This document shows, piece after piece, positions 6,733 to 35,598 of a stretch of DNA of 35,708 nt; within the stretch, counting starts at the first letter, position 1, and each line of letters opens with the position of its first letter. The notes beneath the pieces were generated by a model that was not told the origin of the DNA, searched no databases, and saw only the letters and a list, made by a program, of their open reading frames with translations. Position numbers and translations under genes: made by a program. Source of the stretch: a virus; the IMG/VR virus record IMGVR_UViG_3300032334_001164, positions 1 through 35,708 of that record. One strand, given 5' to 3'.

Positions 6733-8253
6733 TTATGCGGTGGTGATGGTTACGCCGCCGTCATACTGGCTAATCTTAATGACGACGAACTCTGCTGGAC
6801 GTTGTAGAGCAACTCCAATATCAAGGTGGACTTCCCCAGCGTCTACCGTATTTAATGGGTTGTTTGAAGCATTACATTGTACATAGTATGCCTGTTGTGG
6901 GGTATCTCCACGAAGGCCTCCTTGACGCCAAAAATCGTTAAGGAAATTTTGTGCTGTAGCTGTTAGTTGACGCCAAAGCTTTGCATCGTTTGGCTCAAAG
7001 ACTGCATAACGTGTTAGGTTAGAGAGAGTCTTTTCCAAGTAAATAAGGCTACGACGAACTGGTACGTACTTGTCAACATATCCCTGCTTTAGGGTACGAG
7101 CGCCCATAACAACAATGCCAGAGCCAGAAACAAAACGAATTGCATTAACTGGGGCTCCCGCTACGTTCATGGAATCAAGTTCTGTGTTAGTTAGCGCTGT
7201 AACACTTACAGCCCCACCAATGCGAACATTTAAACCAGCTGGTGCCTTAAAGACTCCACGCTGACGGTCTGTTGAAAAGTACTGTCCCGCAACCGCTGAA
7301 GCAACATCAATTGTGCGAGTAACTCCTGGCGCTGTTGTTGTTGGGTCAGCAATAAGAATGTTTGGGTAGTACACCGCTGCGTATGAGCTAGATGAGTAGC
7401 TAGCTGCAAGTGTAATCTGGTCAGCAACAGTTGCTGCACCAGCACCAACAACAACAAAGCAATCTGTTCGAGCTGCTGCATAAGCAATCAATGTATTAAC
7501 AGGGGACGCGGTTGTAACTCCAGGAGCAACTAAAACAAGACTCTGTGGAATTACATCAAAGGCGGTAACAGCATTAGCAATGTCTGCTGCAGTCTGTCCA
7601 CCAGTAGCGTTAACACCGCTAGCAAGCTGTGCGCCAGTAATAGCAACAGGCGCATCCGCATATCCAGTTGTTGGGTCAGCAAGGTCTGTTAGATATACAA
7701 AAGTAGATAGTGCGTTAACAACCGTTGGGGCATAACGAGAGTTTGTGCTATCCATTGATAGGTCTGTGTAACGTTCTACAATGCTTCCGCTTGTAGAGTC
7801 ACCATAGTAGACAACTAGTGTAAAAGTAGCTGCAGTAGCAGTTGCTTTAATGATGTCAAAGTAAATATTGTTTCCCCATGCTCCAGCGCTAGCTGCTTGG
7901 ATTTGAAGGGTGTTAACAGAACCAGCAGCGCCACCGCCACCAGAGCTATCAAAAATAGAACGAGTAGCAACTGCGTTGCCAGTTCCTTGAACACGCTTAA
8001 CGTAGCAAGCTCCGCCGTTATTGTCGACAAGGAAAGAGCGAACGCCAAGACGAAGCGTGTCACCTATCCCTGAATCAAAGTTTCCGTAAAGCTTTACGAA
8101 CTGTGGCCAAGATGTAACTAGGGTTGGTGCAACAGGACCTTGGTTAATAGCGCCAAGAAAAGCGCCGTATTGCAGGGTCTCGTTTCCAGCTGATGGTGGT
8201 GTTGCGTTCAGGTTCTCTGTAACGTACACACCAGGGCGTTGGTAAACTGCCAT
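6733..8253 (-). CDS. Contractile tail sheath protein
   Basis: 506 aa. Opens MAVYQRPGVYVTENLNATPP, the sheath N-terminal strand ('y..PGVYv.E'), followed by the GAFLGAINQGP... and SWPQFVKLYGNF motif. The C-terminus has VPVRRSLIYLEKTLSNLTRY, FEPNDAKLWRQLTATAQNFL, FWRQGGLRGDTPQQAYYVQC and ends DIGVALQRPAEFVVIKISQY, matching sheath C-terminal domains that donate strands to neighbouring subunits. The middle ~150-330 is an Ala/Thr/Val-rich insertion domain. This gene alone shows the tail is contractile. SD AAGGAG precedes the ATG by about 11 bases. Confidence 0.96.
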   Translation of the reverse strand: MAVYQRPGVYVTENLNATPPSAGNETLQYGAFLGAINQGPVAPTLVTSWPQFVKLYGNFDSGIGDTLRLGVRSFLVDNNGGACYVKRVQGTGNAVATRSIFDSSGGGGAAGSVNTLQIQAASAGAWGNNIYFDIIKATATAATFTLVVYYGDSTSGSIVERYTDLSMDSTNSRYAPTVVNALSTFVYLTDLADPTTGYADAPVAITGAQLASGVNATGGQTAADIANAVTAFDVIPQSLVLVAPGVTTASPVNTLIAYAAARTDCFVVVGAGAATVADQITLAASYSSSSYAAVYYPNILIADPTTTAPGVTRTIDVASAVAGQYFSTDRQRGVFKAPAGLNVRIGGAVSVTALTNTELDSMNVAGAPVNAIRFVSGSGIVVMGARTLKQGYVDKYVPVRRSLIYLEKTLSNLTRYAVFEPNDAKLWRQLTATAQNFLNDFWRQGGLRGDTPQQAYYVQCNASNNPLNTVDAGEVHLDIGVALQRPAEFVVIKISQYDGGVTITTA

Positions 8254-8277
8254 GTGATTTTGTCTCCTTAGTGGGTT

Positions 8278-8913
8278 TTAGTCGGGGTTGTACGAATTAT
8301 GCAACTGAGTGAAGGCCGTTGGTACATTGCTCGGATTAGTAGTAATTTGAACGTCATCTACAATGTAGAGAGCGTTGTCAGCCTCATCTTGAGTCATTTC
8401 TGTCAAGATGCGGACAGTTATAGTATTGCGAAAAAGGCGACGCCCATCGTCAATGGTGTCGCGTTTTGCAAAGTTTTCTACGAACATATGTCTATTTTCG
8501 TAAAGTGTATTGTCTGCGTTGGGTATGGATAAGTATCCATAAGTGCCAGGTGTTTTAAATTTTAAAAGGGCAGCAAGAATAGCTCGGTCGTGACGCGGAT
8601 GACGGGCATAAGTTGTTATCTGGTAGTAGAGGTCCCAACGAACTGGTTCCTGGTAGCTATAGATGTCCTCTGCAGCAGCACTAAACGTTCCCGCTTTATC
8701 TAAGTCATAGACGGTTCCGTATACCTGGCGGTCTTTTGATTGCGCAATATCAATCAAGTCAATTGTGATAAATGGGTAAGACTGGGTACGTACTTCAATA
8801 TCTGGCATTGTAAACCAGACCTGTACGGGACGATGTGGGTTTTTACCATCAGATACTTGAATACCCTGGAGCAGTGCTTTAAGTGCTTCGTCTTCACGAA
8901 ATATCATTGTCAT
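8278..8913 (-). CDS. Head-tail joining / tail completion protein (unassigned)
   Basis: 211 aa. Starts at ATG 8913, overlapping the previous stop by four bases (ATGA). Sequence contains VQVWFTMPDIEVRTQSYPFI and TIDLIDIAQSKDRQVYG, then a conserved-looking RWDLYYQITTYARHPRHDRA followed by ILAALLKFKTPGTYGYLSIP. 'P.i.idl' strands followed by 'y.l.y.i.t.aR.......l...l...' are seen in phage neck proteins of the tail-terminator type, where they cap the sheath and tube. Position immediately before the sheath gene supports this role, but I cannot name a precise family. Confidence 0.5.
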   Translation of the reverse strand: MTMIFREDEALKALLQGIQVSDGKNPHRPVQVWFTMPDIEVRTQSYPFITIDLIDIAQSKDRQVYGTVYDLDKAGTFSAAAEDIYSYQEPVRWDLYYQITTYARHPRHDRAILAALLKFKTPGTYGYLSIPNADNTLYENRHMFVENFAKRDTIDDGRRLFRNTITVRILTEMTQDEADNALYIVDDVQITTNPSNVPTAFTQLHNSYNPD

Positions 8914-9236
8914 GCAAATACCTCGTTATCAAACAAGAAATCGCAAATGGCATCTTGGAAAGCGTTGTAAGCGGCTTCATCTACCCCAGTTTGAAGGGGT
9001 CTAATAACCGCCATAGCTGGGTGGTCAAAGTTACCGTACTCAAGTTTGTCAATTGTTTCTTCTAACTCATCTGGATAATCAACACGGATGAGTCTGCCCT
9101 CATATACAACAGAAAGCTCTTTAACAATATCTTTTGGCCAGCCTGAAGTTGAAGCCTTTGATTTAAGTGTTTGTGTAAATGCCGATGCTAGCTTTTCAGC
9201 TGCGCGGTCTTCGTAGCTACGGAAATCACTTGCCAC
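8910..9236 (-). CDS. Small head-tail module protein, unknown
   Basis: 108 aa from a GTG start at 9236. The first 30 residues are helical and charged (SYEDRAAEKLASAFTQTLKS), followed by KELSVVYEGRLIRVDYPDEL and a C-terminal helical part EAAYNAFQDAICDFLFDNEV. I do not recognise the family. It overlaps the upstream 49-aa gene by 11 bp and the downstream gene by 4 bp, so it is translationally coupled between the head-completion and sheath genes. A neck or tail completion function is inferred only from position. Confidence 0.55.
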   Translation of the reverse strand: MASDFRSYEDRAAEKLASAFTQTLKSKASTSGWPKDIVKELSVVYEGRLIRVDYPDELEETIDKLEYGNFDHPAMAVIRPLQTGVDEAAYNAFQDAICDFLFDNEVFA

Positions 9237-10443: not shown

Positions 10444-11010
10444 CTAGATGATATTGCTCAAATTGGATTCAACAGAGGCGCGATATTTAGGCTCTAACTC
10501 CATTAAATCAAGCTCTTTAAACAATTCTTGAGACTCTTCACGGCGGCCTATCCACCATGACGATACGGCCTTTTCAAACTTAAGCACGTAAGCTCCGTAG
10601 TACTCCACATCCCCTGGCAGCGGAGTCATAGCGGCCTCATCAAATGCCCACTCCTCGCCAACGGATGCCATTGTGTAGCACTCCTGCCAAGCGCCTAACT
10701 GCTCGTAGTAACGTGCCAAAAAGAAATATGCCTCTGGTCTGGTTGGTACATGAGCTATGGCTTGGAGGATGTTGTTAAGGACGGTCTTGTTCCTATCCCT
10801 CTGGTCATCAAAGCATATAGACATTTTAAGCAAAGAGGTATACACAATTAGTGGGTCAGTCTTTGCCCCGTACTCTGCAGCCCTTAAGTAGAAAGAAACA
10901 GCTGAGGCGGTCTGGTTAAGCTCGTTGTATTTCTCTGCTATCTCAAAGTTCAACACAGGATTAAACATGTCATGGGAAGCGTCTTCAATAAGTTCTTCAA
11001 TTGATTTCAT
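10444..11010 (-). CDS. TPR-like repeat protein
   Basis: 188 aa, all helical. Repeating pairs of helices are visible: NFEIAEKYNELNQTASAVSF followed by YLRAAEYG, then TRPEAYFFLARYYEQLGAWQ followed by ECYTMASVGEE, and a third pair AVSSWWIGRREESQELFKEL. These fit tetratricopeptide-type repeats ('A..yy..g....A...y..A'). The gene overlaps the beta-propeller gene by 14 bp and so is made with it. TPR units next to carbohydrate-active proteins are common in glycosyltransferase systems, but here the pair sits in a virion gene cluster. A scaffold or binding partner of the propeller protein is inferred. Confidence 0.65.
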   Translation of the reverse strand: MKSIEELIEDASHDMFNPVLNFEIAEKYNELNQTASAVSFYLRAAEYGAKTDPLIVYTSLLKMSICFDDQRDRNKTVLNNILQAIAHVPTRPEAYFFLARYYEQLGAWQECYTMASVGEEWAFDEAAMTPLPGDVEYYGAYVLKFEKAVSSWWIGRREESQELFKELDLMELEPKYRASVESNLSNII

Positions 11011-12001
11011 TAGTTAGTGCCTCCTCAATCATTTCTTCTACAACCGCGCCTGGAACTTGTAAGACAAACGCTGCGTTATCTTGGAACCCAAAGCTTAATA
11101 GTAAATCGGAGCCAAGTTGAGCTGCACCTACGCAGAACTCAATACGGGCATCCAAGAAGGTCCATTTTTCTGGGGAGATGCCGAGCAGATTAAATTCTTT
11201 ATCCCAGACCAGCAAACGGTGGTGGTAGAAACCATCTTTCTGTTGAAGATAGTTTTTAAACAGCTGTACCTCGTGCGCCACGGAGATGTAGAAGTTTCCC
11301 CAGGTAATCATCTGAGAGCCACCACGTTGGTCATTGGGAGCTGGGAATGTATCTCGTACGAACATCTGTTCGGTTCCTTCTGTGTCAGGCGCTGAATAGA
11401 CAAGCTCTGTAGGCATGGTCCATTTAATAAAGTGATAGGGCTTATCAACCACTGGATACCAGTTTTTCTCACAATATGATGTATTGCTGCCTGGTGCTGG
11501 GATGCGCTTCCTGTGTATTTCTTTAGCAGTCCAGGCATCCTTATCAATTTCAATTTGAGTATATTCCATACGACCTTGGCCATTGGTAGTTGTATCTCGA
11601 CGTACGCCAATCAAATAGTAAGCGCCTTCCCATTGGACTAGGCGGGCATCCTCTAGACCTACAAACTCCCAGATAGGGTCGTGAAGCGTTTTCATCTCTA
11701 CTTTAGTGTGGTTAATAACTTTAAGGTCTTTATCAAGGCGCATCAAGTAGTTCTCGGTAACTAAGCGCATATCTTTTTCTGGGTGCAGATAGGACAATGG
11801 TCCCCAGTGTGACGGAAACTTTTGAGTACCTTCAGAGTGGTAGAGCGTGTAGTTAACGTGGCGCAAGTTAACAAGGATGTCCCCATCATCATCTATATAG
11901 ATAGATGGGTTCATAAGCCCTGTGCCACTTGTTAAACCTTTAGCTATTACAAGCGGGGCTAGTCTTCCGCCTTGAGCTACGGAGCGTTGTACCAGATTCA
12001 T
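10997..12001 (-). CDS. Five-bladed beta-propeller, glycosidase-like (GH130/GH43-type fold)
   Basis: 334 aa. Features of the GH130/GH43/GH32 propeller superfamily are visible: MNPSIYIDDDGDILVNLRHV near residue 30-49, FVGLEDARLVQWEGAYYLIG at ~113-132 with the acidic pair Glu117-Asp118, KNWYPVVDKPYHFIKWTMP at ~180, GGSQMITWGNFYISVAHEVQ at ~227, and DARIEFCVGAAQLGSDLLLS near the end. 'G.EDaR......yY..g' resembles the 'EDPR' signature of mannoside phosphorylases/hydrolases. It may trim host surface glycans or bind them as a propeller lectin; catalytic identity cannot be settled by eye. The ATG at 12001 has no clear SD; TATACT lies 14 bases upstream, so a short or near-leaderless transcript is possible. 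The TPR gene follows with overlap. Confidence 0.6.
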   Translation of the reverse strand: MNLVQRSVAQGGRLAPLVIAKGLTSGTGLMNPSIYIDDDGDILVNLRHVNYTLYHSEGTQKFPSHWGPLSYLHPEKDMRLVTENYLMRLDKDLKVINHTKVEMKTLHDPIWEFVGLEDARLVQWEGAYYLIGVRRDTTTNGQGRMEYTQIEIDKDAWTAKEIHRKRIPAPGSNTSYCEKNWYPVVDKPYHFIKWTMPTELVYSAPDTEGTEQMFVRDTFPAPNDQRGGSQMITWGNFYISVAHEVQLFKNYLQQKDGFYHHRLLVWDKEFNLLGISPEKWTFLDARIEFCVGAAQLGSDLLLSFGFQDNAAFVLQVPGAVVEEMIEEALTNEIN

Positions 12002-12005
12002 TGTG

Positions 12006-12040
12006 GCAAAAGTATACCCCCGCCAGATAACTGACGGGGG
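12006..12040 (-). terminator. Hairpin terminator after the 1376-aa structural gene
   Basis: On the minus strand a GC stem CCCCCG..CAG / CTG..CGGGGG (one internal mismatch) closes a TTAT loop and is followed by TATACTTTTG. It lies 21 bases after the stop of the 1376-aa gene and directly ahead of the propeller gene. The T-tract is interrupted, so it may be leaky; the TATACT could also be a -10 element for the propeller gene. Confidence 0.62.
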
Positions 12041-12061
12041 CAGACTTGCCGAACTTAGAGA

Positions 12062-15000
12062 TTATGCTGCAGCTTCAGACCATGATAGACGAGCCTGAAC
12101 TGTCTGAGCAGTTGTACCAACGTTAGATACAACGATTGTTAGTACGTCTGGACCATCTGGGTAAACCATGACGTTACCAGCTGATTGTCCACCACCAAGG
12201 ATTGAGTTACCAAGGTCGCGTACGTTAGACAAGTCTACTTGACCAGTTGAGTTGGTAAAGAATCCACCAGTTGCTTCTCCGCCTTGGATAATATAGTTAC
12301 CACCAGCGTAGTCAACAATCTGAGAGAGTGAAGAGTTAGGAACTAGAGTTGCGTTACCAACTGCAGACCTCCACACTGCATTAGTCAGAGCGGTTGGGTT
12401 AAACACACGACCGTTGAGGTAGCAAAGCACGAGCACGTTACCTGTTGTTGTACCTGTAAGGGTAAGGTCAAGTGCCTTTAGGATTAACTGCATGCGGTTA
12501 ATAACTTCCTTAGTACCAAAGTTACCAATGGTTCCTGAGTCAACAGCTGGTGCTACACGAATTGACATAAGGGCCTTAGTTGAAGCGCCCCAGAAAGTCA
12601 AGGTTGCAGAAGAGATAGTGACTGTGTTATTGATTGTGATAGAGGTTGCGCTGTTAATAGCTGTTACGTAAGAGTTACGTGGAATAGCTGTACCAGAGAA
12701 GTCTGCTACATACATACCAACAACAATGTTTGTGTTGGATGCACCTAGAGTAATGACGTTAGTAGATGACGCTGTTCCAACCGCAGTAAATTCTAGCGCT
12801 GGAGCAAGAGTTGTACCAAGTGTCTGACCGTATGTGAAGAGAAGTGACTTATCATCATCAAAACGACCATCCATCATTACTGATGAACCCCAGTGAGCAA
12901 TTGTTGGAGCATCTGTAGGCATTGCCTGTAAGACTTCAACTGGCGCAGTTGCGCTGTATGTGAAGGCTTGTCCAGATGTTGCTCCACCAGCTACGCAAAC
13001 CACTGTTGGGTTAGCAGTCATTGGTGAGTTAGAGAAGATAACTGTTGTTCCTTGGATGTACGCAATGAAGGTACCTTCTGGAACTGTTGGGTGGATAACG
13101 CGCTGACCAACTTGGAGACCTGAAGCAGAACCAACAACAGCTGTGTTAGAACCAACAGCCCATGTAGTTGATACTGAGGTTGAGCCAGCACCAGCACGTG
13201 TAACACCTGTAAGTGTGTTAGATGTCTTACCTGAGTAAGTAATAAGTTCCTGCTTTGTACCGTCCTTGATTATAGCCATACCCTGAATGCTGAAGAAGGT
13301 GATAGCACCTGAGACAGCGCCAGCATTGTTAGTTGAGAGGGTTACGGTTGTACCTGAGACAGCGATGACCTGTGTACCAGCGGTAATGTTAGACGCGTTA
13401 GCGTAAAGGCCATTTGTAATACCTGCAGCGTTACCTACAGTAATTGTGTTAACACCTGTGTTACCAGTTGCTGTTGTAACAATTGCCTTAGGTGTCATAA
13501 ATGCAGATGTGTCTTCTACGTTGATTGTAGTATCACTAGAACCTACAGAAGCTGTAATTTTTGTTGTTGCAGCGTATGTAGATGCTTCGTAACGAGCAGG
13601 CAAGTTACCTGAGCGCATGTAAGCCATTGGGTTCTGGTTGTTATTAGCAAGCTTGTGTGCGTAGATGATTTCGCCCTTAGGACCACGGAAGCCCCAACGA
13701 ACGCCACCAGCGCCGTACCATGTGTAGTCGATGTAGTACATCTGCATCTTTGATAGGTCAAGTGTGTATCCTGATGGGCCAGTTCCGTCCATCTTGTCGA
13801 TGTTCCAGAGTGAGCGTGGGATACGAAGGTCTGATGTCTTTGAGACAGTTACGTTAGAACCTGATGGTCCACGGTATGCCTGTGTGAGAGTCAAAGATGT
13901 ATCAGATGCAATTGTGTCAACGCGGTAAGATTGACCGCGAATAACAATCCAGTCTCCTGGGTTCAATTGCTTGTTGAATGATGTTGCGAAGTTAGTTGCA
14001 CCAGTTACAGTTGCTGAACCTGTTGTTACAGATACGCGGCCTGCAATCTGGAAGATTGAAGAACGGCGAACTGCATATAGGTTCTGACCATCGTGCTCAA
14101 AGAAGAGACCGTTTTGCTGGTCAAACATACCAATTCGGTTCTGTGCGCCATCCCATGCCAAGATTGACAAGTAGTACTGTCCAGATGCTGTTGCAATTGT
14201 TGGAGCAGTAGTTGGAATGTATGTGAATGTGTTCTGGTCAACGACAGTTACAGCAGCGTAATCTCCGCTGTATCCAGATTCGTTAGCACCAAAGATACGG
14301 ATAGCAAAACCTGGCTGTAGACCATGGCGCTCTTTTGTAACAACTGTTACAGAAGGTGAGCTATAAGTCATACGGTCAATTGTGTATGTTGGCTGCAGAA
14401 TTGTTCCTGTAGATAGCTGAAGTCCCTTACCTGACTGGTAGCGGAAGTAACGGCGTGTCTGACGAACAAGTGAGATGTTGTTTGATGTACCGTTTGAAGA
14501 GAACATAACTCCACCGTCAAATGCGCGGTGAACTGACTGAGCCTGTGAACGAGCATAAACAGCTACTGCAACAGTACATGCTGTTGAAGACATTGTTGCA
14601 AGAAGGTTCTGTGAAAGCTCAACTGATGTTCCAGTAAAGCCCTTGATATAGGTATCAGTAGGGATAAAGTTAGCTGAGATAATTGTTCCGCCAACAGTCA
14701 AACCAGTCGCTGAAGCAACCTGAATGATGTTCTGACCCGCTGCACCTGAAGCAGTTGTTGAAGTCTGTGGTCCAAGCAATGTACCTGAGATTGTTCCACC
14801 ACGGTTATCGTAGTAGTTAAATACTGTAGGTGACTGGACACGGCTAACAATGAAGTTACCGTTTGGAGGAGTACCGCCTGATGTTGAACCAACAACAGCA
14901 ATTTCGTTACCTACGCTAAGACCGTGGTTTGTACCAGTTGTTACTGTTACATCCTGTCCTGTGTAAGCAAGAACTGTAGCTGTATCGTTACCAACGATTG

Positions 15001-16192
15001 CATCGCGGTAGTAATCACCAGTAAGAATAAGTGTCTTAGCGGTATCAAGAATTGAAGTTGAGGCCCAAGCTGTTGGTGTTGGAGCCTTTGAGGTGAATGT
15101 AAATGAAGTTTCACCAGGACGTGTCTCAACTACATAGTTACCAGAAACTCCTGGGAAAAACGCATCTGTAATAGAAATTGGTGAGCCAATTGGAGGAGCA
15201 ACGTTAGTTGTTACTACACCAGCAACTGTTGACTGCGCTGTTGATGTGTTGTTAGCAAGGAGACGGAATGAGGTAGTTGATGGAACTTCAAGAACCTGTA
15301 GAGGAATACCTGAGTTAGTGTTGTAAGAAGCTGGTGTTACACCAGTGATTGTTACATACTGTCCAACTGTCAAACCGTGAGCTGTTGCTGTCTTGTACAT
15401 AGCAGTTGTACCGTTACCTTGAACACCAGTAGCAAGAAGGTTAACTGTTGTGTTTGTAAGGGTAGTTGTGATTGTACGAGTACCCGCAGCGCCTGTAGAT
15501 AAACCAGAGACTGTTAGTGCGTTAAATAGGAGCTGGGATGCAAATGGACGATTGTTTGTAAGTGTCTGTGTTTCCCACTTAGTATCTTGCTTGCCGTATT
15601 CAAAGTCTGTATCCATCATTGACTGAGGAGTAGAGACGCGCATCTTGTTTACTGGGTCTGCGTATGTCTCATCTGGCTTAATGCGCTCTGCAAACTCATC
15701 AATAGTTACCTGAAGTGAGTCAGTTGATGCCATACCAGCTGTAGCTGGGTTAAATAGAAGTGTAATAACTGTTGACTCACTAGCTGCTACAAGACCACCT
15801 GATACATAAGTACCATTTACAGTTGATGCAATAGTAAATGTTGTTGTTGTAGGGGTAGTGGCAACTGTGCCAACAATGTTATATGACGCTGGGGTAACAC
15901 CTGAAAGTGTTACTAGCATTCCAGGAACAAGGTTGTGTGCAGTTAATGTTGTAGCACTTACTATTGAACCCGTTCCTGAGAGGGATGTAATCGCTGTTGA
16001 AAGCTGATTGTCACCGTATGTTGCGTAAGCTGATGATAGAAGTGAGGTATCTGAGAAGTTGTAGATAACCTTGTTCTGCGTTACGTTAGTGATAAGTACA
16101 AGACGTTCCTTAGGAACGATGCGTCGTAGAACTACCTGCTTTGTTGATGGGTTAAACGCATAACCACCATCTAATAGAATCTTTCTTGCCAT
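12062..16192 (-). CDS. Giant repeat-rich virion structural protein (tail fibre/appendage type)
   Basis: 1376 aa, beta-rich, Thr/Val/Gly/Ala-rich. Two repeat families can be seen. The first is an 'AHGL.vG..v.i.G....Y.g' unit, in four copies: TAHNLVPGMLVTLSGVTPAS, TAHGLTVGQYVTITGVTPAS, GTNHGLSVGNEIAVVGS and KERHGLQPGFAIRIFG. The second is an 'a.gl.vG..v....ip..t.I..i.gt.v.ls' unit, in at least four copies in the middle and C-terminal parts. Between them lies a distinctive central region (RRYFRYQSGKGLQLSTGT, LWNIDKMDGTGPSGYTLDLS, QMYYIDYTWYGAGGVRWGFR, AYMRSGNLPARYEAS) that I recall from large structural proteins of T4-like cyanophages. A virion appendage or neck/fibre role is inferred. It lies four bases after the stop of the short fibre gene and is followed by a hairpin. 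Confidence 0.7.
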   Translation of the reverse strand: MARKILLDGGYAFNPSTKQVVLRRIVPKERLVLITNVTQNKVIYNFSDTSLLSSAYATYGDNQLSTAITSLSGTGSIVSATTLTAHNLVPGMLVTLSGVTPASYNIVGTVATTPTTTTFTIASTVNGTYVSGGLVAASESTVITLLFNPATAGMASTDSLQVTIDEFAERIKPDETYADPVNKMRVSTPQSMMDTDFEYGKQDTKWETQTLTNNRPFASQLLFNALTVSGLSTGAAGTRTITTTLTNTTVNLLATGVQGNGTTAMYKTATAHGLTVGQYVTITGVTPASYNTNSGIPLQVLEVPSTTSFRLLANNTSTAQSTVAGVVTTNVAPPIGSPISITDAFFPGVSGNYVVETRPGETSFTFTSKAPTPTAWASTSILDTAKTLILTGDYYRDAIVGNDTATVLAYTGQDVTVTTGTNHGLSVGNEIAVVGSTSGGTPPNGNFIVSRVQSPTVFNYYDNRGGTISGTLLGPQTSTTASGAAGQNIIQVASATGLTVGGTIISANFIPTDTYIKGFTGTSVELSQNLLATMSSTACTVAVAVYARSQAQSVHRAFDGGVMFSSNGTSNNISLVRQTRRYFRYQSGKGLQLSTGTILQPTYTIDRMTYSSPSVTVVTKERHGLQPGFAIRIFGANESGYSGDYAAVTVVDQNTFTYIPTTAPTIATASGQYYLSILAWDGAQNRIGMFDQQNGLFFEHDGQNLYAVRRSSIFQIAGRVSVTTGSATVTGATNFATSFNKQLNPGDWIVIRGQSYRVDTIASDTSLTLTQAYRGPSGSNVTVSKTSDLRIPRSLWNIDKMDGTGPSGYTLDLSKMQMYYIDYTWYGAGGVRWGFRGPKGEIIYAHKLANNNQNPMAYMRSGNLPARYEASTYAATTKITASVGSSDTTINVEDTSAFMTPKAIVTTATGNTGVNTITVGNAAGITNGLYANASNITAGTQVIAVSGTTVTLSTNNAGAVSGAITFFSIQGMAIIKDGTKQELITYSGKTSNTLTGVTRAGAGSTSVSTTWAVGSNTAVVGSASGLQVGQRVIHPTVPEGTFIAYIQGTTVIFSNSPMTANPTVVCVAGGATSGQAFTYSATAPVEVLQAMPTDAPTIAHWGSSVMMDGRFDDDKSLLFTYGQTLGTTLAPALEFTAVGTASSTNVITLGASNTNIVVGMYVADFSGTAIPRNSYVTAINSATSITINNTVTISSATLTFWGASTKALMSIRVAPAVDSGTIGNFGTKEVINRMQLILKALDLTLTGTTTGNVLVLCYLNGRVFNPTALTNAVWRSAVGNATLVPNSSLSQIVDYAGGNYIIQGGEATGGFFTNSTGQVDLSNVRDLGNSILGGGQSAGNVMVYPDGPDVLTIVVSNVGTTAQTVQARLSWSEAAA

Positions 16193-16780: not shown

Positions 16781-17641
16781 TCAACGTACGTACATTTCAA
16801 AGCGGGCTGAGCGATTCATGCCAGAAGTGCTTTGGCAACACGCTATATAGTCACCAGCGGAGTAGTTACCGTAAGTAGAGTCCATACCTATACCTCCCGA
16901 AACGTCGTTTGAACCAATTGCTCCCACAGTATTTGATGGATATACACCCTCAGAGTTTTCATTCCATGCAAAACCCCAACGCACCCTTGCCTGTAGACCA
17001 TAGCCCTGGTTGTTCTCATAATTAAATCCATAGAAGTTAATGTCTGTTTGAGTTGACCAGTAGGCGGTAGAGTTTCCATTAAACGAGGTTGCTGTAGAGA
17101 TAAATACTCCACGACCGCCTGGATTCATGGATTGGCTCTTATATCCAACGGTACTAAAGAAAGATAGCGGAGTAATTCTAGTGCCACCGTTATAGTTAGG
17201 TTGTCTCCATATCCACGGATATCCAGAAGCACTTATTGAACCGCCTTGAGGAATGTCTGGCCATAGCGCCAAGAAGTCTTTCCCTGGAAAATAGTTATAC
17301 ACATTAAACTTAGCATCACCATCATTTCGGTTTGTCTGGTCAGCCGCAAGAACGTTGTTGGTTTCCCAGTAGGATGAAAAGAAGTTAAAAGTTGTTCCTC
17401 TGGTTCCTTTCATGGCCATCATCCAACCGCCACCATCTATTGCACTATTCATAATGCAATAAACTGGAGTAGATGAGCCATTAATATTTATATAGTAAAT
17501 GCCATCGCTGTTATGTCCATTATCTAGTTTTAGCTGTGCCGCTGACTCTCCAGGGTCACTTAAAGATAAACCAGTTGGAAAAGCACCAGGTCTTTTGTAC
17601 CCTCTAGAGCTTCCCACGCTTAAACTACCAAGCAGAGGCAT
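16781..17641 (-). CDS. Fibrinogen-like (YC...GGGW) domain protein, candidate receptor-binding tip
   Basis: 286 aa. Residues ~46-80 carry the signature of the fibrinogen-like bacterial/phage domain: SDGIYYININGSSTPVYCIM then DGGGWMMAMKG, with Tyr61-Cys62 and GGGW at 70-73. The rest keeps the family's look (FNFFSSYWETNNVLAADQT, DAKFNVYNYFPGKDFLALWP, many Trp/Tyr/Asn/Gly) and ends DYIACCQSTSGMNRSARFEM and YVR, with a CC pair. Such domains in ficolins and intelectins bind sugars or acetylated groups. The ATG overlaps the collagen-fibre stop (TAATG), so it is translated straight after the 2333-aa stalk protein; the N-terminal ~35 residues may be the attachment segment. No canonical endolysin or protease motif. 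Receptor binding is inferred from fold and context. Confidence 0.68.
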   Translation of the reverse strand: MPLLGSLSVGSSRGYKRPGAFPTGLSLSDPGESAAQLKLDNGHNSDGIYYININGSSTPVYCIMNSAIDGGGWMMAMKGTRGTTFNFFSSYWETNNVLAADQTNRNDGDAKFNVYNYFPGKDFLALWPDIPQGGSISASGYPWIWRQPNYNGGTRITPLSFFSTVGYKSQSMNPGGRGVFISTATSFNGNSTAYWSTQTDINFYGFNYENNQGYGLQARVRWGFAWNENSEGVYPSNTVGAIGSNDVSGGIGMDSTYGNYSAGDYIACCQSTSGMNRSARFEMYVR

Positions 17642-20600
17642 TATGCGTACCTTGTTCTACTTGCTATAACAGTCCAAGTTGCAGTTGCCGTTTTAAGAAT
17701 TGTATAAGTATAAATATCAAGAGAGTTAGCATTACCTGAGCTAGGTGCGCTTCCATTTTGCCATTTAGGAGTTACTGGAACACCATCAACTTGAAAAGCT
17801 GTTTGATAGTAAGCAGTAGCGCCTTGAGTAGTAATCATAGTAACTGTTACAGATTGACCCACCGCTAAATAGTTATCTAAGAGCTGAGCGCCATCTGCTG
17901 ATACGTTAAAAGTAAAGTTTCCAGTAGTAGTAGCCGCAAACAAAGTAACAGCAGTGAATGATTTAATGTAATAGTTAAGAACACCGTTGAGCGCAACCTG
18001 ATTAATAGAGGCAGACTCAATAAGCTGGGCAACTGTAGTGGTTCCAGTAAAGTTTGTGTTGGAGAAGGTTACATTTCCCGTGGTTGGATAGCTGCCTTGT
18101 AGACCTTGAACACCCTGTGGTCCGTTACTGCCTTGCAAACCGTATGGGCCATATGGACCTTGAATACCATCTAAGCCTTGGATACCTGTTGGTCCTGCAA
18201 AACCTTGTAGGCCTTGGGTACCTTGCGCTTGGTTAAATCCACCGCCTTGCAAGCCTTGCAATCCTTGTGTACCAACTGGGCCAATAACTCCAGTGTCACC
18301 AATAGTTCCTTGAACTCCTTGAAGACCAATGAGACCTTGTGTGCCAGTTAGGCCTTGAGTACCAACAGCGCTTACGCCTTGAATACCTTGTGGCCCTTGC
18401 ACACCAGCAAAACCAGAAGCTGATAGCTCTACCCACGCATAGTTGTTTCCATCATATGTCCATGTATAACCAACACCAGTATTTGAATCAGTCCAACGGT
18501 CGCCAAGTAGCGGTGCAATTGGAGGAATATCACTAAATGTTATTGCTGCGTTTGGTCCTTGAAGTCCTTGCGTTCCTTGAGCGCCAGCACCAGTTGAACC
18601 TTGAATAGATTCACCTTGAATACCTTGCGTACCTTGAGCACCAACATTTCCAGTTGTTCCCTGTAAACCTTGTGTGCCTAAGAAGCCTTGTAAACCAAAT
18701 GCACCTTGTGCACCAACAGTTCCTTGCGCACCGCCTGTACCTTGTGTTCCAGAACCAATTGCACCTTGTATACCTTGTACGCCAGAGAATCCTGATGCAG
18801 ATACCTCTACCCATGCATAATTATTACCGTCGTAGATATAGGTATATTCAATACCGCTATTGCTATCAACCCAACGGTCACCTAGTAACGGTGAGACTGG
18901 AGGTGTTGCATCAAATATTAAAGCTGCGTTAGGTCCTTGTAATCCTTGTAGTCCTTGAAGACCAGCGCCAGTTGTTCCTTGAATAGACTCGCCTTGTAAG
19001 CCCTGAGTTCCTTGTGCACCAACGCCAGTTAAACCTTGAATACCCTGAGTTCCAAGGAAACCTTGAATACCACTAGTACCTTGAGCACCGTTGTTACCAG
19101 TTGCTCCTTGAGTACCCGCACCAGCAGTACCTTGGGTACCTTGCGCTCCCGCAAGACCTGCGTAACCTGACGCAGATAATTCAATCCATTGATAAGTGTT
19201 GCCGTCGTATACCCAGGTAAATTCAGAACCAGAGTTGCTATCTACCCAGCGGTCATTAACGCTTGGTGATGCAGGAGGAAGTGCTGCAAATGTAACTGGT
19301 ACTGAAGGCCCTTGCGTACCTTGTGCACCTTGAATTGAAATGCCTTGGGTACCTTGAATCGCAGCACCTTGAACACCTTGAGTTCCTTGCGCCCCATCAA
19401 AACCGTAACCTTGTAGACCTTGTAGACCTTGTGTACCTAAGAACCCTTGTAAGCCCTGTAAGCCTGCAAAACCTTGAGCAGCAGCAGAGCCTGCTAATCC
19501 CTGTGCACCAGGAGAACCAGCGGGTCCTTGTAAACCAAGAGAGCCAGCAAAACCTGATGCGCTTACTTCAATCCATGCATAGTTGTTTCCATCGTATATC
19601 CAAGTAAATTCACTACCACTGTTTGCATCTACCCATCTATCTCCAAGTAGAGGAGATGCGGGAGGAGTAACATCAAAAATAATTCCAACATTAGGTCCTT
19701 GCAAACCTTGCGTTCCTTGAGCGCCAGCACCTGTTGCACCTTGTACACCAAGGCCTTGAATACCCTGTGTTCCTTGTGTACCAACCCCATCAGTACCTTG
19801 TAAACCCTGTGTACCAATAAATCCTTGTAATCCTGTTGTTCCTTGAGTTCCGCCAGAACCAGATGTTCCTTGTGTACCAGCGCCACCTGCAGCGCCTTGA
19901 ATACCCTGTGCACCCGCAACACCAGAGAAACCTGAAGCAGAAACTTCAACCCACGCATTATTATTACCATCATTAATCCATGTGTACTCAACACCGCTGT
20001 TAGCGTCAACCCAGCGGTCTCCAATAAGCGGAGAAACTGGCGGCGTAACATCAAATGTAATAGCAGCGTTAGGGCCTTGTAATCCTTGGTTACCTTGCAG
20101 ACCTTGTGCACCTAAGTTACCTTGCAGACCAAGTAAACCCTGTACACCTTGAATACCGTCAAGACCCTGAGCTCCAATTAAACCTTGCGTTCCAATGAAA
20201 CCTTGCGCACCGCTTGTTCCTTGGAAACCTTGAGCCGCAGCAGCACCAGCAATACCTTGAGAACCTGGCGCACCAGCTGCTCCTTGAACGCCATACCCAG
20301 CAAAACCAGATGCGGACAATTCAATCCACGCAAAGTTATTACCGTCGTAAGTCCAAGTAAATTCTGAACCAGTGTTTGAGTCAACCCAGCGGTCGCCAAG
20401 CACAGGTGATACTGGCGGAGTGACATCAAAAGTAATTCCAACCGTTGGTCCTTGCAAACCTTGGTTACCTTGTAACCCTTGGAAACCAATTGAACCTTGT
20501 GTACCAAGCAAACCTTGCAGACCTTGAACACCGTCAAGTCCCTGCGCACCAACTAAACCTTGTGTACCAAGGAATCCTTGAATACCTTGTGAGCCAGCAA

Positions 20601-23600
20601 AACCTTGAGCGGCCGCTTCTCCTGCAAGACCTTGTAAACCTTGAGAACCTAATGGCCCAGACGGACCTTGAACACCACTAAAACCTGATGCACTAACCTC
20701 AACCCAAACAGTATTGTTACCATCATTAATCCAAATGTATTCGCTACCGCTATTAGCATCTACCCATCTGTCACCAATGTTTGGTGTGCTTGGTGGAATA
20801 ACATCAAAAACAATTCCAGAGTTAGCTCCTTGAATACCTTGAACAGATGTTCCTTGCAGACCTTGAGCTCCAACAATTCCTTGTGTACCAACAGAACCTT
20901 GTGTACCAGTTAAACCTTGAACACCGTCAACACCTATAGTTCCAGCCGTACCTTGTGCACCTAAAGCTCCTTGCACACCTTGTGTACCACCAACAATAAG
21001 TTGAACCCATTGATTGCCATCAGTATCAGCAATGTATGTGTACTCAATACCGTTAGCTGTATCCCACCAACGGTCGCCCAATACTGGAGATACTGGAGGA
21101 ACAACATCTGAATAGAATCCTCCGCCACTTCCGCCACTACCTGCTGGTCCTTGCAAACCTTGAGTTCCAGTTCCAGTTAATCCTTGTGCACCAACTAAAC
21201 CTTGTAAGCCTTGTGTGCCAACACCAGCAGCACCTTGTACACCTGCGCCAGTGGTTCCCTGAATACCTTGAGTACCAGAGAAACCTGAAGCAGATAGCTC
21301 TACCCATTGAGAAGTGTTGCCATCTGTTATCCAGGTATATTCAACACCTGAATTACTATCTACCCAACGGTCATTTAGACTTGGAGATAGTGGCGGAACA
21401 GAATCAAATGTGACTGGAATAGATGGGCCTTGTAAACCCTGTCCACCTTGAATACCTTGGAAACCAAGTAAACCTTGTAAACCAGTTAAGCCTTGTGAAC
21501 CTGCTACTCCATCATTACCAGTTAAACCTTGAGTTCCTTGTGTGCCAATAAATCCTTGAACACCTTGGAAGCCTTGAGCAGCGGCAGCTCCAGCAATACC
21601 CTGTGTACCCTGTGTACCAATTCCTTGCGCACCCGCAGGCCCCTGAATACCACTAAAGCCTGACGCAGATAGTTCAACCCATTGAGACGTGTTGCCATCA
21701 GATATGTATGTGTATTCAGAACCTGAATTTGAATCAACCCAGATGTCATTGCTATTAGGACTAAGTGGAGGAGTTGCAGAGAATGTAACTGGAATACTTG
21801 GGCCTTGAAGACCTTGTGTTCCTTGAGTTCCGACACCAACTAAACCTTGAAGACCTTGAGAACCAACAGCTCCCTGCGCTCCAACGTCACCAACTAAACC
21901 TTGCGTTCCTTGCGTTCCAAGAAAACCTTGTAGACCTTGAATACCTTGTGCAGCAACTTCACCAGCAATACCTTGAATACCCTGAGAACCAGGAGCACCT
22001 GCAATACCTTGAGCACCCGCAGAACCTGAGTAACCAGATGCTGAAAGTTCTACCCACGCATAAGTATTGCCATCATAAATATATGTAAACTCAGAACCTG
22101 AATTACTGTCGACCCAACGGTCGTTAACGCTAGGTGATACTGGTGGAACTGCTCCAAAAGTAACTGGGATTGAAGGGCCTTGTATACCTTGAGTACCCTG
22201 TGAACCAAATACGCCTTGTAAACCATCAAGACCTTGCGCACCTATTGTTCCTTGAGCACCAACGTTACCAACTAAACCTTGAGTTCCTTGAGTACCTAAA
22301 AATCCTTGTACTCCTTGAAAACCTTGAGCAGCGGCTGCGCCCGCAATACCTTGTACACCTTGAGTACCAATACCTTGCGCACCAGCGGGACCTTGTACAC
22401 CTGAGTAACCAGATGCAGAAAGTTCAATCCATTGATATGTATTGCCATCAAATGTCCATGTGTATTCAGAACCAGAATTAGAATCAATCCATCTGTCACC
22501 AATTGCAGGTGATGCTGGTGGCGTAGAACCAAAAGTTACAAACGCTTGTCCACCTTGGATACCTTGAATAGATTGTCCAGTTAAACCCTGTGGACCTAGT
22601 AAACCTTGAAGACCTTGAAAACCTAACCCACCTTGTAAACCTTGAACACCCTGTTCACCAGCACCAACTGGTCCTTGTGTACCAAGAAATCCTTGAATAC
22701 CCATAGGTCCTTCTGGGCCTAGCCCGCCTTGAAGACCTTGTGAACCTTGTTGACCAGAAAAACCAGATGCAGAAACTTCTACCCAATAATAATTATCACC
22801 ATCATTGATGTAGGTATATTCGGAACCAGAATTAGAGTCAACCCAACGGTCACCAAGTAATGGGTATTGAGGTGGTGTTAGACCAAATGAAATTGCAGCG
22901 TTAGGTCCTTGGTTACCTTGAATACCTTGCAGGCCAAGACCAGTTGCGCCTTGTAATCCAAAGAAACCTTGAATACCTAAAGTACCTTGGTTACCCTGAA
23001 CACCTTGGTTACCAAGAAGTCCTTGTAGACCTTGGTTACCTTGAGTGCCCTGTAATCCTTGTGCACCAACAAAACCTTGTAAACCAAGAGTTCCTTGAAC
23101 TCCTTGTAAACCTTGCGTTCCTTGTGAACCAGTTTGACCTTGGAGACCTAAAGCACCTTGCGCACCAGTCTGTCCCTGTACAGAACCAGCCATACCTTGA
23201 AGACCCTGAATTGCTTGGCCTTGTAAGCCTTGAGTTCCTTGTAAACCAGTTAAACCTTGATTACCTAAAGTTCCTTGTAAACCCTGACCAGTTAAACCCT
23301 GTAGACCAAGAAGTCCTTGTACGCCTTGAACTCCTTGAGACCCAATTAAACCCTGAGTACCCTGAACACCCTGCGCACCCGCAGGTCCAACACCATCTGT
23401 AATAACAAAATAAATAAGGTCGGTGCCAATAATAATACTGTCGTTTGTTCCAGTACCATCTTGGTTTTGCAAAAACGCATTTCCAGATAAAGTTCCATGG
23501 GTTACGTATAAGTAATCACCATTTCGAATTTCTGCAGCAGTACTGTTGTCATAATCAGTAGCGCGAGTAAGTCTCCATGGAGCAATACTTGAACCAGTGT

Positions 23601-24642
23601 TAGTAACAACATAGACACCGTTGTGTAAAGGATTTGCTTGGTTCTTAACAAGAACACGAGAGTTGGTTGGTGGGTTAACTCCACCAACAGTTAGGACTCC
23701 ATTGATTGATGCGTAAAGTTGTGCTCCAACTCCGTACCCGCCATCAGCACCAAGTGTTCCAACCGCATAAGTTGGTGAATTAGATAGTACTGCGGTAGTA
23801 GCTGTGTAAACAGAATCTTTTGCGTTGTATGAACCAGTCTCACCTTTAAGGCCTTGAATACCTTGTATACCAAGCGAACCTTGTACGCCAACGCCTTGAA
23901 TACCCTGCGTACCCTGCGTACCAGCATTGCCTTGTAAACCAAGAGTTCCTTGCATACCAACAGGGCCCAAGAAACCTTGTAAACCCTGATTGCCTTGTAT
24001 ACCAAAATTACCTTGTAAGCCTTGTACGCCTTGTGAACCCACAGGTCCATATAAACCTTGCAGACCTTGGAACCCTTGAAGACCAAGTGTTCCTTGTACT
24101 CCTTGAACACCAATTGAACCAGTGTTACCTTGTAATCCTTGATTACCTACTTCGCCTTGGATACCACGAGTGCCTTGAATACCAGCACCTTGCACACCAG
24201 AAATACCTTGAGGGCCAAAGTTACCTTGAAGACCAACAGAGCCTTGAATACCAATGTCGCCTTTAAAACCTTGGGTTCCAAAGAAACCTTGTAAACCAAT
24301 TGCACCTTGAGTTCCGTTTGAGCCGCTTGTTCCAGCTTGGCCTTGAATGCTTTGACCAGATACACCCTGCACGCCTTGACGGCCTTGTAATCCTTGAGCA
24401 CCAAGTAAACCTTGAACGCCACTAGGTCCTTGTAGTCCCTGACCAGGAACACCTTGAGTTCCCTGAGCACCTTGGAAACCAGATGTTCCTTGAGCGCCAG
24501 GATTTACTGTTAGATTATTTGAAGTAGGCGTAACTGGCGTCGGGACATTAACACTGACGACAATAGGTGCACGAGGGACTACATTGATTCCCTGTGTTGA
24601 ACAGGTACAGCTAGGCTGACCACAAATGACGCAATTAGTCAC
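17641..24642 (-). CDS. 2333-aa collagen-like tail fibre with 13 interspersed beta modules
   Basis: Starts at GTG 24642 with AGGTGA three bases upstream; overlaps the adaptor gene by 8 bp. Residues 1-50 form a Cys-rich head (MTNCVICGQPSCTCSTQG, Cys4/7/12/14) and a Pro/Val linker. Gly-X-Y repeats follow (~51-266), with Gln dominating position Y (GLQGIQG, GTQGLQG), few prolines. Residues ~267-418 form a beta module (RVLVKNQANPLHNGVYVVTN...) known from other phage fibres. From ~583 to ~2080 collagen stretches alternate with 13 copies of a ~48-aa module (PP.SP..GDRWVDSNSGSEYTW..DGN...WVE.SASGFSG), period near 125 aa. A last collagen run is followed by a C-terminal globular domain (~2185-2333: VTFSNTNFTGTTTVAQLIES...). 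Such a protein should form a trimeric, very long, segmented stalk. No frameshift is seen over 7 kb. Next gene is the fibrinogen-like protein. Confidence 0.9.
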   Translation of the reverse strand: MTNCVICGQPSCTCSTQGINVVPRAPIVVSVNVPTPVTPTSNNLTVNPGAQGTSGFQGAQGTQGVPGQGLQGPSGVQGLLGAQGLQGRQGVQGVSGQSIQGQAGTSGSNGTQGAIGLQGFFGTQGFKGDIGIQGSVGLQGNFGPQGISGVQGAGIQGTRGIQGEVGNQGLQGNTGSIGVQGVQGTLGLQGFQGLQGLYGPVGSQGVQGLQGNFGIQGNQGLQGFLGPVGMQGTLGLQGNAGTQGTQGIQGVGVQGSLGIQGIQGLKGETGSYNAKDSVYTATTAVLSNSPTYAVGTLGADGGYGVGAQLYASINGVLTVGGVNPPTNSRVLVKNQANPLHNGVYVVTNTGSSIAPWRLTRATDYDNSTAAEIRNGDYLYVTHGTLSGNAFLQNQDGTGTNDSIIIGTDLIYFVITDGVGPAGAQGVQGTQGLIGSQGVQGVQGLLGLQGLTGQGLQGTLGNQGLTGLQGTQGLQGQAIQGLQGMAGSVQGQTGAQGALGLQGQTGSQGTQGLQGVQGTLGLQGFVGAQGLQGTQGNQGLQGLLGNQGVQGNQGTLGIQGFFGLQGATGLGLQGIQGNQGPNAAISFGLTPPQYPLLGDRWVDSNSGSEYTYINDGDNYYWVEVSASGFSGQQGSQGLQGGLGPEGPMGIQGFLGTQGPVGAGEQGVQGLQGGLGFQGLQGLLGPQGLTGQSIQGIQGGQAFVTFGSTPPASPAIGDRWIDSNSGSEYTWTFDGNTYQWIELSASGYSGVQGPAGAQGIGTQGVQGIAGAAAAQGFQGVQGFLGTQGTQGLVGNVGAQGTIGAQGLDGLQGVFGSQGTQGIQGPSIPVTFGAVPPVSPSVNDRWVDSNSGSEFTYIYDGNTYAWVELSASGYSGSAGAQGIAGAPGSQGIQGIAGEVAAQGIQGLQGFLGTQGTQGLVGDVGAQGAVGSQGLQGLVGVGTQGTQGLQGPSIPVTFSATPPLSPNSNDIWVDSNSGSEYTYISDGNTSQWVELSASGFSGIQGPAGAQGIGTQGTQGIAGAAAAQGFQGVQGFIGTQGTQGLTGNDGVAGSQGLTGLQGLLGFQGIQGGQGLQGPSIPVTFDSVPPLSPSLNDRWVDSNSGVEYTWITDGNTSQWVELSASGFSGTQGIQGTTGAGVQGAAGVGTQGLQGLVGAQGLTGTGTQGLQGPAGSGGSGGGFYSDVVPPVSPVLGDRWWDTANGIEYTYIADTDGNQWVQLIVGGTQGVQGALGAQGTAGTIGVDGVQGLTGTQGSVGTQGIVGAQGLQGTSVQGIQGANSGIVFDVIPPSTPNIGDRWVDANSGSEYIWINDGNNTVWVEVSASGFSGVQGPSGPLGSQGLQGLAGEAAAQGFAGSQGIQGFLGTQGLVGAQGLDGVQGLQGLLGTQGSIGFQGLQGNQGLQGPTVGITFDVTPPVSPVLGDRWVDSNTGSEFTWTYDGNNFAWIELSASGFAGYGVQGAAGAPGSQGIAGAAAAQGFQGTSGAQGFIGTQGLIGAQGLDGIQGVQGLLGLQGNLGAQGLQGNQGLQGPNAAITFDVTPPVSPLIGDRWVDANSGVEYTWINDGNNNAWVEVSASGFSGVAGAQGIQGAAGGAGTQGTSGSGGTQGTTGLQGFIGTQGLQGTDGVGTQGTQGIQGLGVQGATGAGAQGTQGLQGPNVGIIFDVTPPASPLLGDRWVDANSGSEFTWIYDGNNYAWIEVSASGFAGSLGLQGPAGSPGAQGLAGSAAAQGFAGLQGLQGFLGTQGLQGLQGYGFDGAQGTQGVQGAAIQGTQGISIQGAQGTQGPSVPVTFAALPPASPSVNDRWVDSNSGSEFTWVYDGNTYQWIELSASGYAGLAGAQGTQGTAGAGTQGATGNNGAQGTSGIQGFLGTQGIQGLTGVGAQGTQGLQGESIQGTTGAGLQGLQGLQGPNAALIFDATPPVSPLLGDRWVDSNSGIEYTYIYDGNNYAWVEVSASGFSGVQGIQGAIGSGTQGTGGAQGTVGAQGAFGLQGFLGTQGLQGTTGNVGAQGTQGIQGESIQGSTGAGAQGTQGLQGPNAAITFSDIPPIAPLLGDRWTDSNTGVGYTWTYDGNNYAWVELSASGFAGVQGPQGIQGVSAVGTQGLTGTQGLIGLQGVQGTIGDTGVIGPVGTQGLQGLQGGGFNQAQGTQGLQGFAGPTGIQGLDGIQGPYGPYGLQGSNGPQGVQGLQGSYPTTGNVTFSNTNFTGTTTVAQLIESASINQVALNGVLNYYIKSFTAVTLFAATTTGNFTFNVSADGAQLLDNYLAVGQSVTVTMITTQGATAYYQTAFQVDGVPVTPKWQNGSAPSSGNANSLDIYTYTILKTATATWTVIASRTRYA
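18402..22893 (-). repeat. 13 degenerate tandem units (~375 bp) inside the collagen fibre gene
   Basis: Each unit is a ~147-bp module coding for the GDRWVDSNSG-type fold plus ~225 bp coding for Gly-X-Gln triplets. The module's 'R/W' codons recur near 18490, 18874, 19250, 19637, 20012, 20388, 20764, 21070, 21368, 21740, 22118, 22491 and 22845. Spacing is about 354-390 bp, except for two shorter intervals near 300 bp around the divergent sixth copy. The DNA between modules is a dense CCTTG-rich low-complexity repeat (plus strand). Confidence 0.85.
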
Positions 24643-34661: not shown

Positions 34662-34742
34662 GTATATGTATCACTAAAACGATGTAATACGCTAGTTTTG
34701 CACATTTTGTAAAAAAAATCCTATTAAAAATCTTATTTGCGC

Positions 34743-34773
34743 TTGACTTACTTCGTAACGCCTATGCTACCGT
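34743..34773 (+). promoter_or_regulatory. Possible promoter for the lysin
   Basis: TTGACT at 34743-34748 is followed by TATGCT (34763, spacer 14) and TACCGT (34768, spacer 19). Neither spacer is ideal, but both hexamers fit the actinobacterial TANNNT. The hairpin at 34784-34808 would be in its leader. Confidence 0.35.
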
Positions 34774-34783
34774 TGAGTATGGA

Positions 34784-34808
34784 AGAGGCCAGTGATGGTC
34801 TCTTTTGT
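34784..34808 (+). terminator. Possible attenuator hairpin in lysin leader
   Basis: AGAGGCC / GGTCTCT stem (7 bp, one G-T pair, loop AGTGAT) followed by TTTTGT, placed just before the lysin SD (34813-34819 region). A terminator-like hairpin between a promoter and its gene suggests regulated read-through, delaying lysin expression. Confidence 0.45.
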
Positions 34809-34826
34809 ACTGAGAGGAGCAATCAA

Positions 34827-35366: not shown

Positions 35367-35598
35367 TGCGCCTGGATTTGATGGCACTCAACCGTGTTCA
35401 CAAACAGACCCAGATATATTTTTTCCAGAGATAGGGACACCACGTTCGATAACTAAAGCAGCCCTTGCTATATGTAGGAGCTGTCAGTTTCAAACTCCGT
35501 GTCTTGAGTATGCCCTTCACGAGCCCGTAATGGGCATCTGGGGGGCCACAACAGATGTAGAGCGAAAGAAGTTAAAGAGAAGATTAAAACTAGCTTAA
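35308..35598 (+). CDS. WhiB-like iron-sulfur transcription factor
   Basis: 96 aa from the ATG at 35308 (SD GGGAG five bases upstream, inside the lysin gene); earlier in-frame starts at 35269 and 35296 lack good sites. Four Cys are arranged as in WhiB: PCSQTDPDIFFPEIG, then CRSCQFQTPCLEYAL, followed by the G-I-W-G turn EPVMGIWGATTDVERKKLKR and a basic C-terminus. WhiB proteins hold a 4Fe-4S cluster and bind host sigma factor; phage copies can redirect host transcription or block host WhiB2. WhiB proteins are essentially confined to Actinobacteria and their phages, the best host clue here. A strong terminator follows three bases beyond the stop. Confidence 0.9.
   Translation: MSRRAHVTHGSFGNARGGTNAPGFDGTQPCSQTDPDIFFPEIGTPRSITKAALAICRSCQFQTPCLEYALHEPVMGIWGATTDVERKKLKRRLKLA

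Follow-up and report, generated by a model that had tools for sequence, protein, structure and literature searches.

Two families of one fold group provide the closest described systems. GT108 has the fold of GH130, and within GH130 the hydrolases are distinguished from the phosphorylases by active-site residues (PMC8950772, in the part of its text available). GH130 includes beta-1,2-mannosidases, and the accessible part of PMC4599007 is our source for the residue roles of the GH130 hydrolase BT3780, including lysine K199, a mark of beta-1,2 specificity. In giant viruses, the Mimivirus collagen hydroxylase-glucosyltransferase L230 glycosylates a viral collagen-like protein (PMC9614988, available sections). 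Neither the fold group nor the notion that phages carry glycosyltransferase cassettes is new. A phage glycan unit composed of a propeller and a TPR protein was not described in the literature we searched, mostly papers outside subscription, and the conserved propeller-TPR pair and its fusions were absent from the libraries searched.

The gene pair and its surroundings

The window (the whole stretch of DNA analysed, 35,708 bases) is the virus record IMGVR_UViG_3300032334_001164, positions 1 to 35,708. It encodes a tail sheath domain, a portal, a terminase, an NlpC/P60 tape-measure-like protein, collagen repeats and WhiB, and on this gene content it looks like an actinobacterial myovirus, with WhiB the only pointer to the host. 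The original prediction had described a propeller gene with a GLEDAR motif overlapping a TPR gene downstream of the fibres. Both ORFs were found as placed (Table 1), with the motif at propeller residues 115-120, and upstream of them come the structural protein and then the collagen-repeat protein. The propeller and TPR genes make up the window's entire unit; neither an FkbM nor a GT2 match was found in the window. In a relative with 95% identity (L001), an FkbM match and, below threshold, a GT2 match occur elsewhere in the record.

Table 1. Positions of the gene pair, its candidate signals and the upstream virion genes in the window.
Feature	Position	Strand	Remarks
Propeller gene P0001	10997..12001	-	334 aa; GH130/GT108 fold group; putative catalytic Asp D118 in GLEDAR
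TPR-like gene P0002	10444..11010	-	188 aa; conserved partner of propeller
Overlap of propeller and TPR genes	10997..11010	-	14 bp
Shine-Dalgarno-like GAGGAGG for TPR gene	11020..11026	-	inside propeller gene; read from sequence
Terminator-like hairpin	12015..12042	-	between upstream structural gene and propeller gene
Virion structural protein, upstream	12062..16192	-	1376 aa; phrog_5838; possible acceptor
Collagen-repeat fibre-like protein	17641..24642	-	2333 aa; PF01391, E 1.1e-122; possible acceptor

The position of GAGGAGG ahead of the TPR start, within the propeller gene, fits translational coupling of the two proteins. On the 5' side of the propeller gene is a strong hairpin (z -7.1) that carries a short run of T. 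It folds in all four relatives checked, and in one of them (L109) the stem carries a compensating pair, A-T for G-C. The hairpin is likely a terminator or attenuator, and transcription of the pair may be separate or may rely on polymerases reading through from the structural genes. The placement of the pair in a virion operon, as originally predicted, is therefore doubtful, because the hairpin divides the structural gene from the propeller gene.

Elsewhere in the window, a 286-aa protein encoded between the fibre genes (16781-17641, -) matched phrog_1325, of unknown function, and had no Pfam match. An SLT transglycosylase ORF (34737-35366, +) and the WhiB ORF (35269-35598, +) overlap by 98 bases in different frames, and the true start of the WhiB ORF may lie further in.

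Fold and active site of the propeller

The model of the window propeller (pLDDT 86.1, pTM 0.89) found its best Foldseek match in a GH130 beta-1,2-mannobiose phosphorylase (E 1.7e-9). With VIA-align, GH130 chains reached Z 23.2 (5ay9; rmsd 3.4, 283 aligned), the GT108 fold was recovered with MPT-1/2/4 at Z 17.0 to 18.0, and the best GH43 row, at Z 17.3, lay below the GH130 rows. The GH130 five-bladed propeller fold was assigned from the top Foldseek and VIA-align rows rather than from a count of blades. Alignment by hhalign to eight GH130 proteins gave a probability of 94% (E 1.2e-7, 253 columns). The GH130-like propeller first proposed from the sequence thus has GH130 and GT108 as its best PDB folds.

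No match above chance level to the window propeller was found in Pfam, NCBIfam or PHROG, and the GH130 gathering score of PF04041 was not reached. Among 36 relatives, five matched PF04041 at E values up to 0.01, the best at 4.3e-5, and L081 scored 21.4 bits against the cut-off of 26. The propeller probably functions like, and is distantly related to, the GH130/GT108 group; it is not filed as GH130 because it failed the PF04041 cut-off. Weak matches to PipA/GtgA-type models, some 30 residues long, were attributed to chance.

Conservation was assessed in 125 loci with propellers less than 80% identical, drawn from the best 80 loci of each scan; the set may include the window's own copy. Thirteen residues were invariant in all 125: N31, P32, R47, E117, D118, K179, N180, R226, H243, Y259, H261, E288 and D308. 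Of these, hhalign paired N31-P32, E117-D118, K179-N180, H243, Y259 and D308 with GH130 columns. By alignment, N31 corresponds to N74 of BT3780, E117 to E141, Y259 to Y302 and D308 to D363, and R47 corresponds to R89 by motif order, hhalign having left it unaligned. The invariant catalytic Asp of GH130 (D142 of BT3780) was found as D118 in 125/125. The mapping of catalytic residues onto GH130 that the original prediction had called for therefore identified a candidate acid, and the combination that it had named as fatal, a propeller lacking every catalytic acid and making no predicted contact with the TPR protein, was not what we found. H243 pairs with the His of the phosphorylase YHG motif, a position occupied by Asn in BT3780. 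Specificity for beta-1,2-mannose is suggested, because K179 corresponds to the K199 lysine.

The paired glutamates of the hydrolase, E227 and E268 of BT3780, are not preserved: neither aligned position carries an invariant acidic residue, as judged by sequence mapping rather than superposition. An ungapped reading put T195 (T/S/C/A/G/Y among the relatives) at the E227 position and the invariant R226-G227 at the E268 motif. Nearby E199 is acidic in most relatives (E in 115/125, Q in 6/125). The Arg of the phosphorylase hRP motif aligned with W194, with K193 beside it, in what is partly our interpretation of the alignments. R226 is close to the [KR][IV]G residue of phosphorylases, and the choice of the three phosphate-binding residues is also partly interpretive. 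Because one phosphate-contacting basic position appears as W194 with an adjacent Lys, the donor chemistry is uncertain.

Pairing with the TPR protein and company in relatives

In the 125 loci, the TPR gene overlapped the propeller gene or lay within 30 nt of it in 101, was fused to it in 4, and lay downstream at a distance of over 200 nt in 10; in 3 the contig ended too soon to tell. It was not found in the remaining seven: L197, L201, L214, L252 and the loci L083 (7451-8332, +), L143 and L144, which belong to a distant, DSL-LC01-like propeller subfamily with 21-24% identity. Before redundancy removal, with some contigs counted twice, a same-strand TPR gene was present in 293/304 loci and absent from 11. 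A reverse search starting from the TPR protein found a propeller no more than 1 kb upstream in 78 of 80 loci, and the other two lacked room for one. This test is not fully independent, because its 80 loci, the nearest relatives of the window TPR protein, share contigs with the propeller-found set. The propeller-TPR arrangement is not due to chance.

Propeller and TPR were joined in single ORFs in five distinct cases: L203 (528 aa), L249 (527 aa), and L239, L292 and L251 (740-742 aa). L226 is the L203 contig again, and the two were counted once. The natural L203 fusion, standing in for the window pair, was modelled by AlphaFold2 from 41 aligned rows that included four more fusions and TPR rows with 31-40% identity to the fusion. 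The model was confident (pLDDT 93.3, pTM 0.91), and this pTM over a 528-residue, two-domain chain indicates a predicted fixed arrangement of propeller and TPR. Residues 341-522 form helices that matched a consensus TPR (TMt 0.83, rmsd 2.7), which identifies the TPR fold in the model. The window TPR protein itself had only sub-threshold TPR matches in Pfam, and the protein of L081 was above the TPR_17 cut-off. The conserved pairing, the natural fusions and the two-domain model support the dedicated complex that had been postulated.

The TPR ORF exceeded 230 aa in 88/224 loci, one being the L203 propeller-TPR fusion. Pfam domains fused to the TPR ORF in chosen cases were FkbM, Methyltransf_24, GT2, GT17, GT25, GT7C, DUF6445 and radical SAM/SPASM, and one 1478-aa protein (L199) combined GT2, GT7C and GT17 with a sub-threshold GT25. 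DUF6445 looks like a 2OG oxygenase. Propellers were likewise fused to radical SAM/SPASM (L202), to GT17 and MT24 (L200), to MT24/TylF (L207), to FkbM (L215, and L222, which also has a second, partial propeller) and to an N-terminal GT17 (L174). Six long propeller ORFs were scanned, and their additional domains were glycan- or methyl-transferring or radical SAM, with none structural.

Of 115 loci, 64 contributed the 124 cassette ORFs that were sampled at random; these contained FkbM (27), DUF6445 (16), GT2 (11), GT25 (8), Methyltransf_24 (7), radical SAM (6), GT17 (4), SPASM (4) and GT7C (2); the rest were unmatched or belonged to other families, phage structural genes included. A gene family represented by FkbM stood at position +2 in 79/142 loci. 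A cupin family of the mannose-6-phosphate isomerase type (PF01050) adjoined the propeller in 11/142 loci (E 1.2e-31 in L052), and the record of Synechococcus phage S-SCSM2R carries a PF01050 gene; a mannose-6-phosphate isomerase has been reported in cyanophage (PMC9602691, available text). The two PF01050 findings support the link to mannose, but the presence of GT17, GT25 and FkbM shows that the products of relatives go beyond a mannoside. Two loci with nearly identical propellers differ in the domains that accompany them (GT2-GT7C-GT25-GT17-TPR in L181:6998-11763 versus GT2-GT7C-TPR-FkbM in L191:2815-6803), which suggests that domain shuffling diversifies the glycan. This argument from company rests on relatives, because the window has neither FkbM nor GT2. 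In a count of collagen repeats, GXY runs of at least 10 occurred in 57/125 loci and in 51/125 of the reversed-sequence control; because that control keeps the 9-base period and is hence invalid, nothing was drawn from the count.

Relatives were numerous in IMG/VR. Scans with the propeller or its alignments gave 101 relatives among 121 matched stretches in one case, and at least 590 of 599 and at least 586 of 599 in others. Each scan contributed its 80 best loci, which biases the retained set towards close relatives. When one genome per species was scanned, four of the 62 matched stretches were relatives, and all four came from metagenome-type bins. Three of 50,697 annotated phage records matched: S-SCSM2R (47% identity to the window propeller), Synechococcus phage DSL-LC02 (45%) and Actinomycetia phage DSL-LC01 (22%). 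The propeller is labelled beta-mannosyltransferase in both DSL-LC records and MGP protein in S-SCSM2R, for which Synechococcus WH7803 is given as host. The TPR gene adjoins it in DSL-LC02 and S-SCSM2R, in ORFs of 717 and 621 aa with further fused domains, annotated FkbM or CcmH/NrfG. In DSL-LC01 a TPR gene was looked for and not found; the propeller there adjoins methyltransferase and TauD-like genes. A GDP-D-mannose 4,6-dehydratase and a GDP-L-fucose gene have been reported in DSL-LC02, and the word mannosyltransferase is absent from the main text of that report as available (PMC10611076).

The best viral fold matches in BFVD were an uncultured tailed-phage protein and proteins of giant viruses (Pithovirus, Solivirus, Mimivirus, Satyrvirus and Indivirus), some labelled fucosyltransferase, WcaK-like or LicD-like. 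The known range of the GH130/GT108 fold thereby grows by a large phage family and, on the evidence of the fold matches, by giant viruses.

Two further observations were made in the relatives. One contig (L100) bears two divergent propeller-TPR cassettes, at 1331-2341 (-) and 8001-8999 (+). In many relatives, as at L036:1099-2571 (-), the upstream gene joins a Mu-F-like head protein (PF04233) to an ADP-ribosyltransferase domain (PF03496).

Function of the pair and comparison with known systems

Since glycan-making enzymes adjoin or fuse with the pair in relatives, the most likely role of the pair is to build glycans, possibly on the virion itself, and not to digest host sugars. With moderate confidence, we propose a phage glycan-synthesis complex in which an inverting GH130/GT108-type transferase or synthetic phosphorylase sits on a TPR scaffold. 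The computed parts of this case are the fold similarity, the invariant pocket, the conserved pairing, the natural fusion and the company of glycan enzymes; the donor, the linkage, synthesis rather than breakdown, and the acceptor are what we infer. Against it count the absence of FkbM and GT2 matches from the window, a score below the GH130 Pfam cut-off, W194 and the hairpin.

The pair would act inside the cell. The TPR protein would be translated by coupling from the propeller message and, packed onto the propeller, would serve as the scaffold on which the acceptor is held; in relatives, the scaffold may also hold glycosyltransferases, methyltransferases and further enzymes that modify sugars or proteins. 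The propeller would be a transferase or synthetic phosphorylase that inverts and is probably specific for mannose; its catalytic Asp would be D118, and its presumed donor is GDP-mannose or mannose-1-phosphate. As acceptor we consider a surface protein of the virion most likely, for example one of the neighbouring structural or collagen-like fibre proteins. A narrower version can be offered only tentatively: a GT108-like propeller mannosyltransferase on a TPR protein that grips virion proteins, perhaps collagen-like fibres, with relatives extending and methylating the glycan through fused and shuffled GT and methyltransferase domains, as a dedicated system for protein glycosylation in tailed phages.

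If the proposal is true, hundreds of phage contigs (at least 590 matching stretches) have in common an undescribed glycan-synthesis complex, and many genes now called hypothetical gain a function. Phage particles or infected cells would bear phage-made, often methylated, glycans, and the question of how these phages diversify their surface would become accessible to experiment. On the narrower version, the complex would be a bacterial-virus counterpart of giant-virus collagen and fibril glycosylation, giant viruses having such proteins of their own by fold match.

The same type of enzyme might instead modify a surface polysaccharide of the host, altered during infection to exclude other phages, a reading we consider rather unlikely. 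Clusters of cyanophage glycosyltransferases have been read as host-surface modification (PMC7824862, available part), and in 43/142 loci the gene before the cassette is portal-like and on the opposite strand, as expected for an auxiliary cassette and not for a structural module. Neither of the points on the other side is decisive: a TPR scaffold and fused DUF6445 suit protein better than a lipid-linked polysaccharide, and the pair follows a same-strand structural gene in 6/142 loci, all near relatives of the window.

A virion-borne enzyme that cleaves mannan-like host glycans, the first reading of the original prediction, is very improbable. Fibre genes are nearby, GH130 contains such mannosidases, and E117 and K179 match E141 and K199 of BT3780, but the reading is disfavoured because the hydrolytic glutamate pair is not preserved, and the neighbours and fused domains of relatives make or methylate glycans. 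We regard as just as improbable a catabolic mannoside phosphorylase that recovers mannose-1-phosphate from host glycans as auxiliary metabolism; phosphorylases are among the closest folds and H243 matches their His, but the TPR partner and the fused glycosyltransferases and methyltransferases would be left unexplained. The degenerate, non-catalytic lectin once considered is scarcely credible because D118 and other pocket positions are invariant, and the weak profile matches to Photorhabdus PLL lectins (E 2.8e-4) spanned about 40 residues, roughly one blade, and faded to E 0.31-0.79 with a broader alignment.

Compared with known systems, the proposed glycan-synthesis propeller has in common with the GH130 beta-1,2 mannoside phosphorylases Teth514_1788 and Lin0857 the propeller fold, the Asp of G-x-E-D, the sugar-binding positions, the lysine of the KN/KD motif and the YHG His. 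It differs from them in its low identity (about 12-14%, below the PF04041 cut-off), in the apparent Trp at the hRP Arg position, and in its conserved TPR partner and glycan-synthesis context. The hydrolases BT3780 and BACOVA_03624 are alike in fold, in the E141-D142 motif and in the K199-like Lys, whereas their Glu pair is not preserved in the phage propeller. The Leishmania GT108 MPT mannosyltransferase/phosphorylases are alike in fold, and a synthetic role with GDP-mannose is possible in the phage as well; we know of no TPR partner for these enzymes. O-GlcNAc transferase also couples a TPR scaffold to a glycosyltransferase. Its catalytic unit is GT-B, whereas that of the phage is a propeller, and the weak profile match (E 0.065-0.069) is not evidence of homology. 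Some phage cassettes resemble Mimivirus L230 in having GT25 and DUF6445 domains; L230 is not a propeller, and a collagen-like acceptor in the phages is putative. The nearest likeness among annotated phages is to DSL-LC02, DSL-LC01 and S-SCSM2R, whose propellers are related to that of the window and, in DSL-LC02 and S-SCSM2R, have the TPR protein next door.
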